From positions 1 through 32,853 of the forward strand of contig CADEDT010000020.1 in NCBI GenBank assembly GCA_902826145.1: DNA of 32,853 bases, in the 5' to 3' direction. This document shows, one piece after another, positions 1,521 through 26,678 of the stretch (its first letter is position 1; every line of letters starts with the position of its first letter). The DNA comes from an uncultured Caulobacteraceae bacterium. Its GTDB lineage: Bacteria; Pseudomonadota; Alphaproteobacteria; Caulobacterales; Aquidulcibacteraceae. The notes beneath the pieces are model-generated. The model was not told the origin of the DNA, did no database searches, and was given only the letters and a program-made list of their open reading frames with translations. A program made the translations under genes and the position numbers.

Positions 1521-2429
1521 ATGGCGAATAGCGTCGCAGCTGCGGCTGGGGCTCAACCCGCGCGCAAGCCAAAAGCTAAAGCCAAGAACCGCGGCGGCAT
1601 TCCGCTGTTTCGTTGGCTCACGCGCAACTGGGTGTGGGATACCTTCATCCTACTCTGCATCATCGGCAACGCCGCGATCCTCGGCTACGACGCGCACTTC
1701 GGTGAAACAAATCCGTACCACGCTCTAATCGAGCAGTGGAACATGTACTTCCTCTTCATCTTCACCGGCGAACTCGCGCTTGAGTTTCTCGCGCAAGGTC
1801 CGCGCAAATATTTCTCGAGCGGCTGGAATATCTTCGACGTGATCGTTGTCGGGCTGAGCTACATCGCGGTGAGCCCGGCGATTTCCGCGTTGCGGACATT
1901 GCGCGTGGTGCGCGTATTCCGCCTTGTCAGCGCCGTGCCGCAGATGCGGCGCGTCGTTGAAGCGTTGTTCGGCGCGATGCCGGGCATTCTTGCATCGTTC
2001 GCGATCCTCGCTGTCGTCTTCTACATCGCCGCCGTCATGGGCACGACGCTCTTCCATACTGATCCCGGCTTCAAAGATCTGGGCGCGTCGCTGTTATCGC
2101 TCTTCGCATTGTCGCAGTTCGACGGCTGGGGCGACACCATTGCGCGGCTGCAGGAGCAGAACCCCTACGCCTGGGTTTTCGTGATTGGCTTCACGATCAT
2201 CGCAGCGTTCGCGGTGCTCAATCTCTTCATTGGCGTCATCGTCGAAGCCGTGCAGGCCGCGCCGCAGGAGGAAATCAAGGAAGAGATCGAAGAAGTGCAA
2301 AGCGACGTCGAGGAGCTTCAGGAAGCGCAAGAAGATGCCGCCACCGTGCAGCGTCGTATTCTTGAGGAAGTGCGAGCGTTGCGTGTCGAAGTGGCGTCGC
2401 TTCGTGGCGGCGGCTCGCCGCCCGCCTAA
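1521..2429 (+). CDS. Single-domain voltage-gated cation channel (BacNaV family)
   Basis: A 302-aa ion transporter of the one-domain, tetrameric NaChBac type in the inner membrane. S1 is near 38-56; S4 carries four arginines spaced every third residue (R125, R128, R131, R134); the pore loop and filter lie at 192-205 and S6 at about 217-243. A strongly acidic heptad-rich helix at 248-295 matches the C-terminal coiled-coil bundle of this family. The filter reads Q-F-D-G-W-G-D where NaChBac has T-L-E-S-W-S, which suggests altered ion preference. GGAGGGG lies six bases before the ATG. The family is clear; the ion carried is inferred. Confidence 0.92.
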   Translation: MANSVAAAAGAQPARKPKAKAKNRGGIPLFRWLTRNWVWDTFILLCIIGNAAILGYDAHFGETNPYHALIEQWNMYFLFIFTGELALEFLAQGPRKYFSSGWNIFDVIVVGLSYIAVSPAISALRTLRVVRVFRLVSAVPQMRRVVEALFGAMPGILASFAILAVVFYIAAVMGTTLFHTDPGFKDLGASLLSLFALSQFDGWGDTIARLQEQNPYAWVFVIGFTIIAAFAVLNLFIGVIVEAVQAAPQEEIKEEIEEVQSDVEELQEAQEDAATVQRRILEEVRALRVEVASLRGGGSPPA

Positions 2430-2479: not shown

Positions 2480-3802
2480 ATGCAAAACACCGCTCTACGG
2501 CGCTGCGCATTTGTAGCCGCCGCTCTGGCCGTTGCTTCCTGTGGCGGCGGAACAAATCTGCCAATCGAGCAGGGCTACGGCGCGAACCCAACGCTGCCTG
2601 AACCGCAACGACAGACGATCCCGCTCGTGAATATCGCGCCGGCTCAGCCCTGGGCCGATGGCGAAATGCCGACGCCGGCGGAAGGTCTCGCTGTGAATTC
2701 GTTTGCAAGCGGCCTGGATCACCCCCGCTGGCTCTACGTGCTGCCGAACGGCGACGTGCTCGTCGCGGAATCCAACGCGCCAGCCAACCGACCTGACGAA
2801 ACGCGCGGGATCCGCGCGTGGTTCATGGGACTCGTCATGCGCAACGCGGGCGCAGGCGCGCCAAGCGCTGACCGTATCACGTTGCTACGCGACGGTGATG
2901 GTGATGGCGTCGCCGAAACGCGCACGATTTTTCTACAAGGCCTGCATTCGCCGTTCGGCATGACGCTCGTCGGCAGCGATCTATACGTCGCCAACACCGA
3001 TGCGATTGTGCGCTATCCCTATCGAACGGGCGAAACTCAGATCACGGCGCAGCCGACGCGCGTCGTCGAACTTCCCGCTGGCCCGCGCAATCACCATTGG
3101 ACGAAGAACGTCATCGCCAGCCGCGATGGCTCGCGCCTCTACGCAACCGTCGGTTCGAACAGCAATGTTGGCGAGCATGGAATGGACATCGAGGAGGGGC
3201 GCGCCGCGATTTGGGAGATCGATCGCGCGACCGGCGAGCATCGGCTCTTTGCGACTGGTCTGCGCAATCCAAACGGCATGGATTGGGAGCCGCAAACTGG
3301 CGCGCTCTGGACCGTCGTCAACGAACGCGACGAAATCGGCAACGACCTCGTGCCCGACTACGCGACGAGTGTTCAGGACGGTCACTTCTACGGCTGGCCC
3401 TATTATTATTACGGCACGCATCGCGACGAGCGCATCGACATCCCCGCCAATGTCCGCCTGCGCGCAGCGACAGCGCCTGACTACGCGCTCGGCTCGCACA
3501 CCGCTTCGCTAGGTCTCGTATTCAATCGCGGCGACGCGCTAGGTGCCCGCTATCGCGGCGGCGCGTTCATCGGCCAACACGGCTCGTGGAACCGCGCCGA
3601 CCATAGCGGCTATAAGGTCGTCTACTTGGCGTTCGCCAACGGCCAACCGGATGGCCAGCCACAAGATGTGCTCACCGGCTTCCTCGATGAGGATGAAAAC
3701 GCGCGCGGCCGTCCGGTCGGCGTGGTCATCGACAATCGCGGCGCGCTGCTTGTCTCCGACGATGTGGGCAATGTGATCTGGCGAGTGACCGCGGCGCGTT
3801 AG
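2480..3802 (+). CDS. PQQ-dependent sugar (sorbosone-type) dehydrogenase lipoprotein
   Basis: A 440-aa beta-propeller protein of the glucose/sorbosone dehydrogenase family. It starts with a lipoprotein signal peptide ending AVAS-C (Cys21), so it should be anchored on the periplasmic side of a membrane. Family blocks include YVLPNGDVLVAES, PRNHHWTKNV with the conserved His pair, VGSNSNVGEHGM, GLRNPNGMDWEPQTGALW, FYGWPYYYYG, and the closing GRPVGVVIDNRGALLVSDD. These enzymes oxidise sugars or polyols with pyrroloquinoline quinone. No PQQ synthesis genes are nearby, so the cofactor would come from elsewhere. No clear Shine-Dalgarno is seen before the ATG. The substrate is not predictable. Confidence 0.88.
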   Translation: MQNTALRRCAFVAAALAVASCGGGTNLPIEQGYGANPTLPEPQRQTIPLVNIAPAQPWADGEMPTPAEGLAVNSFASGLDHPRWLYVLPNGDVLVAESNAPANRPDETRGIRAWFMGLVMRNAGAGAPSADRITLLRDGDGDGVAETRTIFLQGLHSPFGMTLVGSDLYVANTDAIVRYPYRTGETQITAQPTRVVELPAGPRNHHWTKNVIASRDGSRLYATVGSNSNVGEHGMDIEEGRAAIWEIDRATGEHRLFATGLRNPNGMDWEPQTGALWTVVNERDEIGNDLVPDYATSVQDGHFYGWPYYYYGTHRDERIDIPANVRLRAATAPDYALGSHTASLGLVFNRGDALGARYRGGAFIGQHGSWNRADHSGYKVVYLAFANGQPDGQPQDVLTGFLDEDENARGRPVGVVIDNRGALLVSDDVGNVIWRVTAAR

Positions 3803-4371
3803 CGCCCGGTCGCGCTCTCGTTCGACGCGACCAACACCGGTGGCGCGAGCACCACGTTGATGCCTTGAATGACGCCGTTCGACGCGTCGATGTCCTGCAT
3901 CGTCACGAGCTGGTCGTTTACGCGCAGGCCGTCGCGGCCATCCACCGTCACGCGATAGCCGTTCGACGCTTCAGGCCGCGTCACCCGGCCTTGCGCACTG
4001 GTGCTCGTCACGCGCGCCGGCACAACGTGATAGGCGAGGAGAGCCAATAGCTCGTCGCGGTTGGTCGGCTCCATTAAGCGGCGCACTTCGCGTTGGTCCA
4101 TCTGCCTGAATGCTTCGTCTGTCGGTGCAAACAGCGTGAACGGGCCTTCGCCACGCAACGTCTCTTCGTAGCCAGCAGCTTCCACAGCCGCGAGGAATTG
4201 CGTGAATTGCCCCGTCGCCGCGGCGACGTCGAGCACATCGCCCTGCGGATCAGGCGTTTGCGTTTCAGCGATCATGAAGCGCTCCGCATTTTGCGCGGTT
4301 GCGGGAGCGAGCGGGGCGAGCGCACACACGGCGGTGAGCAATGCGGCGCGAAGTGGGCGTTGGAACATCAT
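3799..4371 (-). CDS. Secreted fasciclin (FAS1) domain protein
   Basis: A 190-aa protein starting MMFQRPLRAALLTAVCALAP, a clear Sec signal peptide ending near PATAQ. The frame is open much further upstream, but that part overlaps the divergent DnaJ-like gene and is Cys/Arg-rich, so the start at 4371 is preferred. The FAS1 fold is shown by TQFLAAVEAAGYEETLRGEGPF, the FTLFAPTDEAF box, LLALLAYHVVP and the closing NGVIQGINVVLAP. FAS1 domains mediate adhesion or surface binding. Its TAA overlaps the TAG of the convergent dehydrogenase gene (shared TTAG, 3799-3802). Confidence 0.87.
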   Translation of the reverse strand: MMFQRPLRAALLTAVCALAPLAPATAQNAERFMIAETQTPDPQGDVLDVAAATGQFTQFLAAVEAAGYEETLRGEGPFTLFAPTDEAFRQMDQREVRRLMEPTNRDELLALLAYHVVPARVTSTSAQGRVTRPEASNGYRVTVDGRDGLRVNDQLVTMQDIDASNGVIQGINVVLAPPVLVASNESATGR

Positions 4372-4456
4372 GGCGTAGAAACCCCAAACGTCGCCTGCGG
4401 TTTCATGACCGTCGCAACGTACTGGCGCCTCTCTGCAGCATCGGCGACAATGAGGT

Positions 4457-5149
4457 ATGTCCGTATGGTCCCGCATCGTTGAGCTGGCCGCGCGCGCCTT
4501 CGACCCGGAGGCCGATCCACCCGAATTCAACGAAGAATGCGCGCCGCGCCCGAATGATGTCGGCTTTACGGCAGCGGTGATTGGTCTCGCTGCGAAGATG
4601 TCGAAGGCCGATGGCGTCACGAGCGAAGCTGAAATAGCCGCCGCTGCGCAGGTCTTTCGCCCGCCACCGGGCGAGGAAGAGCATTTCCGACGCGCCTTCA
4701 TGCTGGCGCAGCAAACGGTTCTGGGATTTGATTCCTACGCCAAGCAGATCGGCCGCAAATACCGCGCACGCCCGTGTCTGCTCGAAGACGTCCTCGACGG
4801 GCTTTTCCACATCGCCGGCGCGGACGGCTCGATCACGCCGGCTGAGCTGGATTATCTTGAGGAAGTCGCCGCGCATTTCGGCTTCAGCGAACTCGAATAC
4901 CGCCGCATCAAGGCGACCAATCTTGGCCCTGACGCCGGCGATCCTTACGCCATCCTGGGCCTGCTGCCGGGCGCGACTATGGAAGAGGTGCGCCACGCCT
5001 GGCGGCGAATGGCCGCTGAAAACCATCCCGACCGCATGCTCCAGCGCGGCGCGCCGCCTGAGTTTGTGGAAATTGCGCGCGAGAAAACCGCAGCGATCAA
5101 CGCCGCTTACGCCAAAATACGCGAAGAACTCAGCGCCAACGCGAAATGA
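4457..5149 (+). CDS. TerB-like/J-domain protein (soluble DjlA relative)
   Basis: A 230-aa protein with an N-terminal TerB-like helical domain (about 35-155) containing two acidic turn motifs, KADGVTSEAE and ADGSITPAE, and a C-terminal J domain (162-225) with the diagnostic HPD at 190-192 in NHPDRM. J domains stimulate DnaK ATPase. The architecture matches DjlA, but the membrane helix of enterobacterial DjlA is absent, so it should be cytosolic. It is divergent from the fasciclin gene and upstream of a small membrane protein and an amidase; a DjlA-like gene next to an AmpD-like amidase is, as I recall, a recurring alphaproteobacterial arrangement. A weak GAGG precedes the ATG. Confidence 0.85.
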   Translation: MSVWSRIVELAARAFDPEADPPEFNEECAPRPNDVGFTAAVIGLAAKMSKADGVTSEAEIAAAAQVFRPPPGEEEHFRRAFMLAQQTVLGFDSYAKQIGRKYRARPCLLEDVLDGLFHIAGADGSITPAELDYLEEVAAHFGFSELEYRRIKATNLGPDAGDPYAILGLLPGATMEEVRHAWRRMAAENHPDRMLQRGAPPEFVEIAREKTAAINAAYAKIREELSANAK

Positions 5150-5531: not shown

Positions 5532-6302
5532 GTGACTCGTTACCTTCAAAAGCCATCGCCCAATTTCGACGCGCGCACGCGTCCGATTGATCTTGTCGTG
5601 CTGCACTACACCGGCATGCAGGACGCCGAGATCGCTTTAGCAAGATTGACTGATCCATCGCCGGTCGCGGGCCACTATCCTGGCCCGTGGCAGAGCGATG
5701 ATGTCGACGCCAGCGCGCCGCTCTCGCGCGTGAGCGCACACTATGTCGTCGACGAAGCAGGGCAGATCTATTCACTCGTGCCGGAAGAGCACCGCGCCTG
5801 GCACGCAGGCGCATCGAGCTGGGAAGGCGACGGCGACGTGAACGCACGATCGATCGGCATTGAGATCGTCAACGGCGGCCACGACTTTGGCTTGCCCGAT
5901 TTCGCCGACGCGCAGATCGATAGCGTGATCCAGTTGCTCAAAGACATTTTCGGCCGCTGGCCCGAACTCAGCCCCAAGCGCGTTGTCGCGCATTCTGACA
6001 TAGCGCCCGAGCGCAAAGCCGATCCGGGAGAGAAGTTTCCCTGGAAGAAGCTCGCTGACGCCGGCGTTTCGATCTGGCCGGAGCACGTTGCCGTTCAGCT
6101 CGACAACGACGATCCCGTTTCTGCCGTCCAGCAGCAGCTCTCCTTCATCGGCTATGGCGTGAAGCAAACTGGCTATATGGATGAGATCACTAAAGCCTCT
6201 TTGATCGCTTTCCAGCGCCGCTTCCGCCCGAGCGACATGAGCGGCGGCGTCGATGACGAGACGCGCTACTTGCTCATCGCTCTCGGCCGGATGGTAAAAT
6301 GA
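5532..6302 (+). CDS. N-acetylmuramoyl-L-alanine amidase with PG-binding domain
   Basis: A 256-aa Amidase_2 (AmpD/AmiD) family enzyme that cuts the bond between MurNAc and L-Ala in peptidoglycan or muropeptides. Zinc ligands are visible as H25 (VVLHYTG), H154 (VVAHSDIAP) and D164 (RKADPG), with the AWHAG box at 89-93. The C-terminal part (about 190-256) matches a peptidoglycan-binding helical domain, including AVQQQLSFIGYG and a FQRRFRP motif. No signal peptide is evident, so a cytosolic recycling role like AmpD is likely, although the binding domain resembles AmiD. The GTG start is the only one near the conserved N-terminus. Its TGA overlaps the next gene's ATG (ATGA). Confidence 0.92.
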   Translation: MTRYLQKPSPNFDARTRPIDLVVLHYTGMQDAEIALARLTDPSPVAGHYPGPWQSDDVDASAPLSRVSAHYVVDEAGQIYSLVPEEHRAWHAGASSWEGDGDVNARSIGIEIVNGGHDFGLPDFADAQIDSVIQLLKDIFGRWPELSPKRVVAHSDIAPERKADPGEKFPWKKLADAGVSIWPEHVAVQLDNDDPVSAVQQQLSFIGYGVKQTGYMDEITKASLIAFQRRFRPSDMSGGVDDETRYLLIALGRMVK

Positions 6303-25127: not shown

Positions 25128-26678
25128 ATGGTCCTCTTTGAATGGACCCTCGTTCTTCTCTTCTTCGCCGTCTTGGTCACGGGGTTTTCCCGCCGCATCG
25201 GCGTGCCGTACCCATCCATGCTTGCGCTGGCCGGCGCCGCACTCGCTTTCGTGCCCGCCGGCCCCGAAATCAGCATTGATCCCGAACTCGCGCTGGCGCT
25301 CTTCATCGCGCCCGTTCTGTTCGACGCCGCCTTCGACACCTCTCCGCGTGATCTGAAGCGCAACCTGACGCCGCTCATAGCGCTCGTCTTCGTCATGGTC
25401 GCGCTCACCATCGGCGCCGTCGCCTATGTTGGTGTGGAGTATGGCGGTCTGCCGATTGCCGCCGCCATCGCGCTAGGCGCTATCGTGGCCCCGCCCGACG
25501 CCGTCGCCGCCACTGCTGTGCTCGGCCAGCTCAAACTCCCGCGCCGCCTGATGCAAATTCTGCAGGGCGAGAGCCTCTTCAACGATGCGCCTGCGCTGCT
25601 GATCTATCGCTTCGCCGTCGTCGCCGCTGCGGGCGGCCTCACACTGGCGGAAGCCGTGCCCATGGTTGCGCTTGCCGCGATCGGCAGCGTCGTCGCGGGC
25701 TACCTGCTGGCGCGCGTCTTTGTCATTGCGGTTAGTCGCGTCACAGACGCGGCCAGTTTCACCGTCATCGCTTATTGCGGCACGTTCGGCGTCTGGATCC
25801 TGGCGGAGATGCTGCATCTCTCGGCCATCATCACCGTCGTCGTCTACGCTATCACCATGGCGCAACGCGTGCCGACGAGCATGTCGCCACGGGTGCGGGT
25901 CAGCACCTATTCCGTCGCCGAGACGGCCGTGTTCGTGCTGAATGTGCTCGCCTTCGTGATCATGGGCCTGCAAGTGCGGCCGATCATCGATCGGTTGTCA
26001 GGCGCGGAACTCACCTCCGCGCTTTGGTTCGGCGGCGCCGTGCTCGCCACTGTCATCCTCGTCCGGTTGGCGTACGTCTTCATCTACAACGGCGCCGCCC
26101 GTCTGAAGAACGCAACGATCGGCCCTGCGCCAGGCGTTGAAGCACCGCAAGCGAGGTATGCCTTGGTTGTCGGCTGGTGCGGCATGCGCGGCCTCGTCAC
26201 GCTCGCCACCGCGTTCGCGCTGCCTCAAGATTTCCCAGGCCGCGACGTGATCGTGCTGTCTGCATTCATGGTGGTGATTGGCACGCTGGTGGTGCAAGGG
26301 CTTACATTGAAGCCTCTGCTCGCACTGCTTAACATCCAGCGCGATGATAGCGTCGAAGCGGAAGTCTCGCGCGGCCGCGTCGCCATCGTGAACGCCGCGC
26401 TCGCGGAGCTTGAAGGCGCCACCGAACCTGAAGCAGAGTTTGTGCGCCAAGGCTACCGCGCCGCACTACCCATCGCCGCGAGCGAGACGCCGCAGGCAGC
26501 AACGGCCTACGAGCAGATCAAGCTCAAGCTCATCCCGAAACAACGAGCCGTGCTTGCCGGTATGCGCGAACGAGGCGAGATCGGCGACGAGGCGTTTCAC
26601 CGGCTCGAAGAGGAACTCGATTGGGCCGAACTCAACGCCGCGCCCGCCGGCCATTTTCAGCCGCTGACGACGGATTGA
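25128..26678 (+). CDS. CPA1-type cation/proton antiporter
   Basis: A 516-aa inner-membrane Na+(K+)/H+ antiporter of the NhaP/CPA1 type. About 12 hydrophobic segments cover residues 5-400. The transport motifs are APPDAVAATAV (D124) and GESLFNDAPALLIY (N152, D153), corresponding to the conserved helix 5 acid pair; a GMRGLVTLATAFALP block is also conserved. A soluble C-terminal tail (about 405-516) may sense pH or nucleotides. The ATG is three bases after murB, so it is probably in the same transcript. It replaces ddl at this position in the usual gene order. Confidence 0.9.
   Translation: MVLFEWTLVLLFFAVLVTGFSRRIGVPYPSMLALAGAALAFVPAGPEISIDPELALALFIAPVLFDAAFDTSPRDLKRNLTPLIALVFVMVALTIGAVAYVGVEYGGLPIAAAIALGAIVAPPDAVAATAVLGQLKLPRRLMQILQGESLFNDAPALLIYRFAVVAAAGGLTLAEAVPMVALAAIGSVVAGYLLARVFVIAVSRVTDAASFTVIAYCGTFGVWILAEMLHLSAIITVVVYAITMAQRVPTSMSPRVRVSTYSVAETAVFVLNVLAFVIMGLQVRPIIDRLSGAELTSALWFGGAVLATVILVRLAYVFIYNGAARLKNATIGPAPGVEAPQARYALVVGWCGMRGLVTLATAFALPQDFPGRDVIVLSAFMVVIGTLVVQGLTLKPLLALLNIQRDDSVEAEVSRGRVAIVNAALAELEGATEPEAEFVRQGYRAALPIAASETPQAATAYEQIKLKLIPKQRAVLAGMRERGEIGDEAFHRLEEELDWAELNAAPAGHFQPLTTD

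Follow-up and report, generated by a model that had tools for sequence, protein, structure and literature searches.

A one-domain voltage-gated channel gene from an uncultured Caulobacteraceae bacterium encodes the selectivity filter QFDGWGD, which comparison with related sequences indicates is a near-genus-fixed variant within a known channel kind; its lineage forms a natural series for studying how glycine at filter position 4 (Gly4) acts in channels that probably lie outside the group of CavMr. The filter resembles those of calcium channels more closely than those of sodium channels. The gene lies in a stretch of 32,853 nucleotides (contig CADEDT010000020.1 of assembly GCA_902826145.1), hereafter the window. 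On balance, by residues and by analogy with characterised channels, we lean towards a depolarisation-gated homotetramer with a ring of aspartates and Gly4 that would be Ca2+-permeable and would probably prefer Ca2+ to Na+. The original prediction, that the protein may conduct Ca2+ or be poorly selective, is a fair one, and the interpretation as a whole is partly supported. What could not be seen from the window by itself is that the filter is near-fixed genus-wide, yet one of many within the order.

Channel gene and protein architecture

The gene (P0001; positions 1521..2429, + strand) encodes 302 amino acids from an ATG preceded by a GGAGG stretch, spotted by eye. Its product matches Pfam Ion_trans over a single domain (5.7e-48) and has six transmembrane helices; a search of NCBIfam gave no match for it. 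The genome contains three matches to PF00520, among which this is the only Na/Ca-type channel, the other two proteins carrying the K+-channel filters TVGYGD and TTGYGD. By its domain, its S4, S2 and S3 residues and a P1–filter–P2 arrangement with Trp at position 5, we assign the protein to the one-domain prokaryotic voltage-gated channels of the BacNav kind.

The voltage-sensor domain (S1–S4, residues about 40–137; 1638..1931, + strand) comprises AlphaFold2 helices at residues 37–63, 67–92, 101–115 and 119–137, with pLDDT values of 63–84 by blocks. It is complete: F81, the acidic residue E84 of S2, the S3 aspartate D106 and four S4 gating arginines spaced by three (R125, R128, R131 and R134; 1893..1922, + strand) are all present, and all are invariant across the 15 rows of alignment A1, which joins the window's channel to 14 relatives. 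S5 (residues about 153–177; 1977..2051, + strand; modelled helix 153–177) leads into the P1 pore helix (modelled at residues 187–198; 2079..2114, + strand), the filter Q199-F200-D201-G202-W203-G204-D205 (2115..2135, + strand) and the P2 pore helix (modelled at residues 203–211; 2127..2153, + strand). One unbroken modelled helix (residues 217–294; 2169..2402, + strand) then holds S6, an acidic neck and the C-terminal helix, with block pLDDT values of 78–88 up to residue 240 and 44–75 beyond. P2 lacks one residue by comparison with TLESWSM channels: the filter Trp and the S6 Trp lie 15 apart here and 16 apart there (spacings of 13 and 14 in PWAW sequences are counted as 15 and 16). The P2–S6 loop reads LQEQNPYAW, and the only cysteine of the protein is C46.

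The AlphaFold2 model, built from a 20-row alignment, is a monomer and as such is silent on pore width. Its mean pLDDT is 71, with 81–90 over residues 161–230 and 63–65 over S4 and the S4–S5 linker. It superposes on the NavMs pore (4x8a) at 1.4 Å over 92 residues with 45% identity, and structural alignments with full-length NavMs entries give 33–38% identity. The 50 VIA-align matches listed span Z scores of 14.5–15.4 with Nav, Cav and other channels mixed; the model therefore does not choose between Nav and Cav.

Conservation of the filter

Bases 2115–2135 translate exactly to QFDGWGD, as predicted for residues 199–205, and in alignments with solved bacterial pores (7pg8, 4lto) the filter lies without gaps over TLESWSM. 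The residues picked out at the outset, a retained Trp, Asp at the Glu position, Gly at position 4 and Asp at position 7, hold on both counts. Their proposed counterparts need some correction. TLESWSM is indeed the filter of NavAb (PMC10120453), but not that of NaChBac, which is TLESWAS (PMC4225499). Engineered CavAb, a NavAb derivative with the filter TLDDWSD, shares Asp3 and Asp7 as claimed, but it also has Asp4, absent here, and Ser6 (PMC10120453).

A search of genome contigs yielded 20 loci (L004–L023), 14 of which (L004–L017) are near orthologues from metagenome-assembled genomes labelled Hyphomonadaceae, Caulobacterales or Alphaproteobacteria; all 14 carry Q[FY]DGWG[DE], and Q199, D201, G202, W203 and G204 are invariant in A1. 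Within the genus, 25 of 30 genomes contain a channel match at 1e-15, including all 24 that are at least 87% complete and one of the six below 87%; the five without a match still have none at 1e-5. One match (G271, a genome at least 87% complete) falls into two pieces, one with an internal stop. With it left out, the remaining 24 of the 25 channels comprise 16 with QFDGWGD, six with QFDGWGE, one with QYDGWGE and one with LFDDWGN, so that 23 have an acidic residue at position 7. Beneath this constancy the codons vary: among 26 distinct coding stretches picked for Q[FY]DGWG[DE], position 1 is CAG in 16 and CAA in 10, position 4 is GGC in 17, GGT in seven, GGG in one and GGA in one, and position 7 is GAC in 15, GAT in three, GAA in seven and GAG in one. 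Near-fixation in the genus under silent codon change indicates that the filter is under selection, beyond chance. We also considered whether the channel might be noise; the agreement of reading frame, domain match, relatives and silent codon change rules this out.

Filter variety among relatives

Searches of the order (398 genomes, 215 with a match at 1e-15) and of the phylum (398 genomes, 128 with a match at 1e-12) supplied 50 regions and 55 distinct regions, respectively, chosen as representatives, which together with the loci from the other searches gave an HMM alignment of 192 channel ORFs from 187 loci, 169 of them distinct. The 169 are a chosen sample, whose shares are not natural frequencies: TLESWSM occurs 51 times, Q[FY]DGWG[DE] 26, TFEDWTD 21 and the TMDGWR type 17, followed by TLEGW-type filters (14, ending in PD, AM, AD, AT, RE or VE), TLDGW-type filters (11, ending in GE, GD or SS) and rarer forms. 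Asp3-Gly4 is present in 56 and Glu3-Gly4 in 22; taking position 4 alone, 57 have Ser and 34 Asp or Asn. Other filters among relatives of the same order are TMDGWR(F)E, TLDGW(S)GE, TLEGWPD, TLEGWAM and TLESWSM. At position 4, four near relatives (L050, L051, L052 and L063) carry Asp or Asn, which shows that the branch of the window's channel can do without Gly4.

Two departures from the usual filter pattern were seen in passing. In a sister clade (L018, L064–L072, L074–L076 and L199–L201), TMDGWR(F)E and its variants place an arginine at position 6, right after the Trp and beside Asp3-Gly4, a positive charge that sets them apart from the characterised filters in the literature consulted. Other relatives (L054–L059, L062, L077 and L137) have length-shifted filters; TLDGW(S)GE has one residue inserted after the Trp. 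The spacing from filter Trp to S6 Trp ranges from about 15 to 17 among relatives.

Phylogenetic position

Trees were built without the filter columns from 151 rows, left after merging those of the 192 ORFs that share a filter, at an identity threshold of 90%; a careful tree of 72 rows was collapsed further at 70% identity with the same first five filter letters, and three long rows (L022, L095 and L179) were removed. A branch with support 99/94 parts 18 rows with TFEDWTD, TLEDWTD and like filters from 54 rows that include the TLESWSM channels. The window's channel falls among the 54, nested among LFDDWGN, LFDNWGD and LFDDWGA channels, and its clade adjoins the TMDGWR clade (96/70). The two sides are named by filter type, CavMr, NavPp, NavAb and NaChBac not being rows of the tree; published work places CavMr in the NavPp-type (AnclNav) group. 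In an approximately unbiased (AU) test, forcing the nine-row QFDGWG clade together with the 18-row group cost 17.7 log units and was not rejected (p-AU 0.157), the tested groups having been named after inspection of the tree. By the 99/94 branch, the window's channel would belong to the NavAb-like side, apart from the NavPp-type rows; it has the same fold and anatomy as NavAb, NavMs and other TLESWSM-type BacNavs. The shorter P2 would favour grouping with the NavPp-type rows, which share it; the same shortening is seen in TLEGWPD and TMEGWPD channels placed in other parts of the tree.

That Gly4 is a single inherited trait was rejected: a tree constrained to unite the 28 rows with Gly4 is 306 log units worse (p about 4e-79). 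Over the 72 rows, a minimum of 19 changes is needed at position 4, and a minimum of 12 for the distinction between Gly and any other residue. Under parsimony, Asp3 is present throughout the 15-row clade of QFDGWG and TMDGWR channels and Gly4 is the cheapest state at its base; two further Asp3-Gly4 channels, L060 and L061, join this clade at 92/66. At the NavAb-like root, G and S tie at position 4.

The 18-row NavPp-type group includes one channel (L178, genome G742), from a 1.2-Mb genome of the same class, with the filter TLSSWET, which is the filter reported for NavRh (PMC4225499).

Gene neighbourhood

Three genes near the channel are syntenic. A fasciclin-domain gene (3799..4701, − strand; Pfam Fasciclin 1.6e-28) recurs at 13 of the 14 near-orthologue loci; its ORF as listed overlaps the next one, and its true start is probably further in. 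That next gene encodes a TerB and DnaJ protein (4457..5149, + strand; Pfam TerB 1e-21, DnaJ 3.5e-8), which is DjlA-like, with a DjlA match under the NCBIfam cut-off. An N-acetylmuramoyl-L-alanine amidase gene follows (Amidase_2 and PG_binding_1 by Pfam; 5532..6302, + strand), near the channel in 13 of 14 near-orthologue loci and at L018 and L199. Downstream lies a cell-wall and division cluster, mraW, ftsI, murE, murF, mraY, murD, ftsW, murG, murC and murB, with names assigned from Pfam domains and order. A Na_H_Exchanger-family gene (25128–26678) comes directly after murB. Between the channel and fasciclin genes, a gene resembling GSDH/sorbosone dehydrogenases (2480–3802) had no match at 1e-8 in the available stretches of L004–L023, and for this reason may be a local insertion in the window.

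The TerB-DnaJ neighbour is present in 13 of the 14 near-orthologue loci (absent at L016) and at the TMDGWR locus L018, and was not found at the five other distant loci, L019–L023. Among 20 further loci, examined together with some 3 kb of flanking sequence in either direction, it stands by the TMDGWR channels of L199, L200 and L201 and the QFDGWG channel of L198; it was not found at the remaining 16, which include the near relatives L195 (TLDGWGD) and L197 (LFDNWGD). All four TMDGWR loci examined (L018, L199, L200 and L201) thus share the chromosomal place of the window's channel. On this shared gene order, the most natural reading is that QFDGWG and TMDGWR channels are orthologous and that the filter has changed in place.

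Ion preference

Published mutants indicate which filter residues bear on ion preference. CavMr of Meiothermus ruber (TLEGWVD), described as the first Ca2+ channel native to a prokaryote, has a PCa/PNa of 218, which drops to 11.9 in G4S, bearing out the importance that the original prediction gave to Gly4 in this channel, and to 7.7 in G4D; D7M leaves 144 (PMC7041947). V6T cuts the ratio to 40 and also admits K+ and Cs+, so position 6 matters as well. In NavPp, D4G raises PCa/PNa from 0.31 to 41.4 (PMC7041947), and Gly4 is the most powerful determinant among these mutants, all made in the CavMr and NavPp backgrounds. A 2023 review describes one-domain channels with Gly at the 'beacon' position as selective for Ca2+, irrespective of which of Glu and Asp occupies position 3, although in its relevant passage the examples for the two cases look swapped, CavMr having Glu (PMC10120453). 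By analogy, Gly4 is the best support for Ca2+ permeation of the window's channel. The arguments from Asp7 and Asp3 are weaker: that from Asp7 because CavMr D7M still reaches 144, and Asp3 is tied to lost Na+ selectivity, not to Ca2+ selectivity, in NsvBa (TLDSWGS) and NaChBac E192D (PMC4225499). NsvBa G189A, in which Asp3 is retained, still passed Ca2+ and Ba2+ (PMC4225499), and NavAb L176F, with Phe at position 2, is described as having no Ca2+ block (PMC10349818).

The window's channel has in common with CavMr the one-domain kind, Gly4, Trp5 and Asp7 (PMC7041947), the acidic position 7 (here D205) being a feature of the AnclNav group of CavMr and NavPp. It differs in having Asp rather than Glu at position 3, Gly rather than Val at position 6 and Gln-Phe rather than Thr-Leu at positions 1–2, and, with no Cys there, it is without the long disulphide-bonded L6 (P2–S6) loop of CavMr (PMC10120453). 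Against TLESWSM the filter differs at positions 1, 2, 3, 4, 6 and 7, with QFDG in place of TLES. Exchanging the full filters of CavMr and NavAb gave no current either way (PMC7041947), and because NavAb with the CavMr filter was silent, Gly4 may not act alike in a NavAb-like background.

We picture a BacNav-type cation channel that opens on depolarisation and is assembled from four copies of this protein. Each subunit would contribute D201 to a high-field-strength ring, and the small G202 just above it would leave a wide mouth, giving two carboxylate rings, the four D201 residues in the filter and an outer ring of D205. Hydrated Ca2+ should then be able to bind and pass, in line with proposals made for CavMr and for domains I and III of Cav channels. 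Given Asp3, and Gly6 where CavMr has Val, we would expect a moderate PCa/PNa, in the tens, with a monovalent leak at low Ca2+, and not the tight selectivity of CavMr. A physiological role in voltage-triggered Ca2+ entry is speculative.

Among the alternatives, we give most weight to a non-selective channel like NsvBa of Bacillus alcalophilus, in which the shorter Asp3 together with Gly6 would widen the filter enough to admit Na+, K+ and Ca2+ alike; we regard this as a real contender, though a good deal less probable than Ca2+ preference. NsvBa shares Asp3, Trp5 and Gly6 with the window's channel and is non-selective among Na+, Ca2+ and K+; D186E alone makes it Na+-selective, and moving Asp3 and Gly6 into NaChBac confers its selectivity (PMC4225499). 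Both residues are invariant in A1, and OsEukCatA1, with Asp at the same site, is likewise non-selective (PMC10120453). The resemblance stops, however, at position 4, which is Ser in NsvBa, and at position 7, where NsvBa has Ser and 23 of 24 genus channels have Asp or Glu. The passage of K+ in NsvBa has moreover been linked to a G6-x-G8 motif (PMC4225499), which is absent from the window's channel, where Thr stands at position 8 (G204-D205-T206).

An Na+-permeable channel in which extra carboxylates bind Ca2+ and block the pore, after the manner of NavPp, seems to us improbable. NavPp (TLEDWTD) has one more filter Asp than CavMr, yet its PCa/PNa is 0.31 and Ca2+ inhibits it (PMC7041947); charge alone therefore does not give Ca2+ selectivity. 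Six Na_H_Exchanger-family and two NhaA-family matches in the window's genome could recycle Na+. The residue that D4G removes from NavPp, with a rise in PCa/PNa to 41 (PMC7041947), is nevertheless one that the window's channel does not have, being already Gly4. Gene content gives no clear signal for Ca2+ or Na+: the genome, 92% complete, has no match to CaCA exchangers or to the P-type Ca2+-ATPase C-terminal domain and encodes a GDT1-type protein, and CaCA matches occur in 12 of the 30 genus genomes. Least probable by far, in our view, is that the Asp-Gly filter serves another end, such as structural or pH adaptation of an Na+ channel, while ion preference drifts freely in the order. The lability of position 4 across the tree would fit such drift, but near-fixation of the filter within the genus under silent codon change is unlike it.

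Returning to the Ca2+-preferring channel, we tentatively extend it to the lineage, with rather less confidence and at somewhat short of an even chance: the common ancestor of QFDGWG and TMDGWR channels would already have had Asp3-Gly4, later retuned at one chromosomal locus, the order would naturally contain a range of Ca2+-type filters built on NavAb-like scaffolds, and the window's channel would be a native Ca2+-selective homotetramer in which Gly4 confers Ca2+ selectivity outside the CavMr group too. Four Asp with four Gly in a native Ca2+-selective homotetramer is a state that we did not find recorded in the literature consulted, and our search, which covered open-licence literature, found no report of this filter in this bacterial group, although one may exist elsewhere.

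Relation to other Ca2+-type filters

What is at stake here is whether Gly4 can act only within the scaffold of CavMr, since the filter swaps between CavMr and NavAb gave no current (PMC7041947). A single order, with Gly4 on the apparent NavAb side and with natural variation at positions 4 (G, D, N or S) and 6 (G, R, A, S or P), provides ready constructs for this question. The matter also bears on the origin of the D/E-G-W filters of Cav domains I and III and of CatSper. The pattern D-G-W-x-D is common to the window's filter, to CatSper3 and CatSper4 (TVDGWTD and TQDGWVD; PMC7041947) and to domain III of Cav3.1 (SKDGWVD). These eukaryotic channels are four-domain or hetero-tetrameric and have such a filter in part of the ring, whereas the window's channel, if homotetrameric, would have it at all four positions. 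Among the four Cav3.1 repeats, domain III matches the P-loop best (33.0 bits, against 12.7, 11.7 and 5.1), with SLFVLASKDGWVD of the window's channel aligned on SLFALSQFDGWGD. Close homology to Cav3 was considered and rejected: the top rank of Cav3.1 among PDB matches sums four repeats, and a single stretch of 7pg8 scores 54.0 bits against 33.0. We take the Cav3.1 match, at the level of sequence, as a filter resemblance only.

A separate observation concerns adjacent channel genes. In four genomes from the phylum search, three of one genus and one of another, two one-domain channel genes lie next to each other on the same strand, with TTEGWPT followed by TMEGWPD in three (L133, G492:C135; L134, G430:C62; L135, G469:C22) and TTEGWPS followed by TSEGWPD in the fourth (L136, G578:C391). 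A literature search on tandem or heterotetrameric prokaryotic channels listed only a paper on Cav1.1. These pairs may encode a two-gene, hetero-tetrameric channel with Cav-like E-G-W filters. The two copies are 43–60% identical, and the distance from the first stop to the next ATG is −4 to 24 bases.
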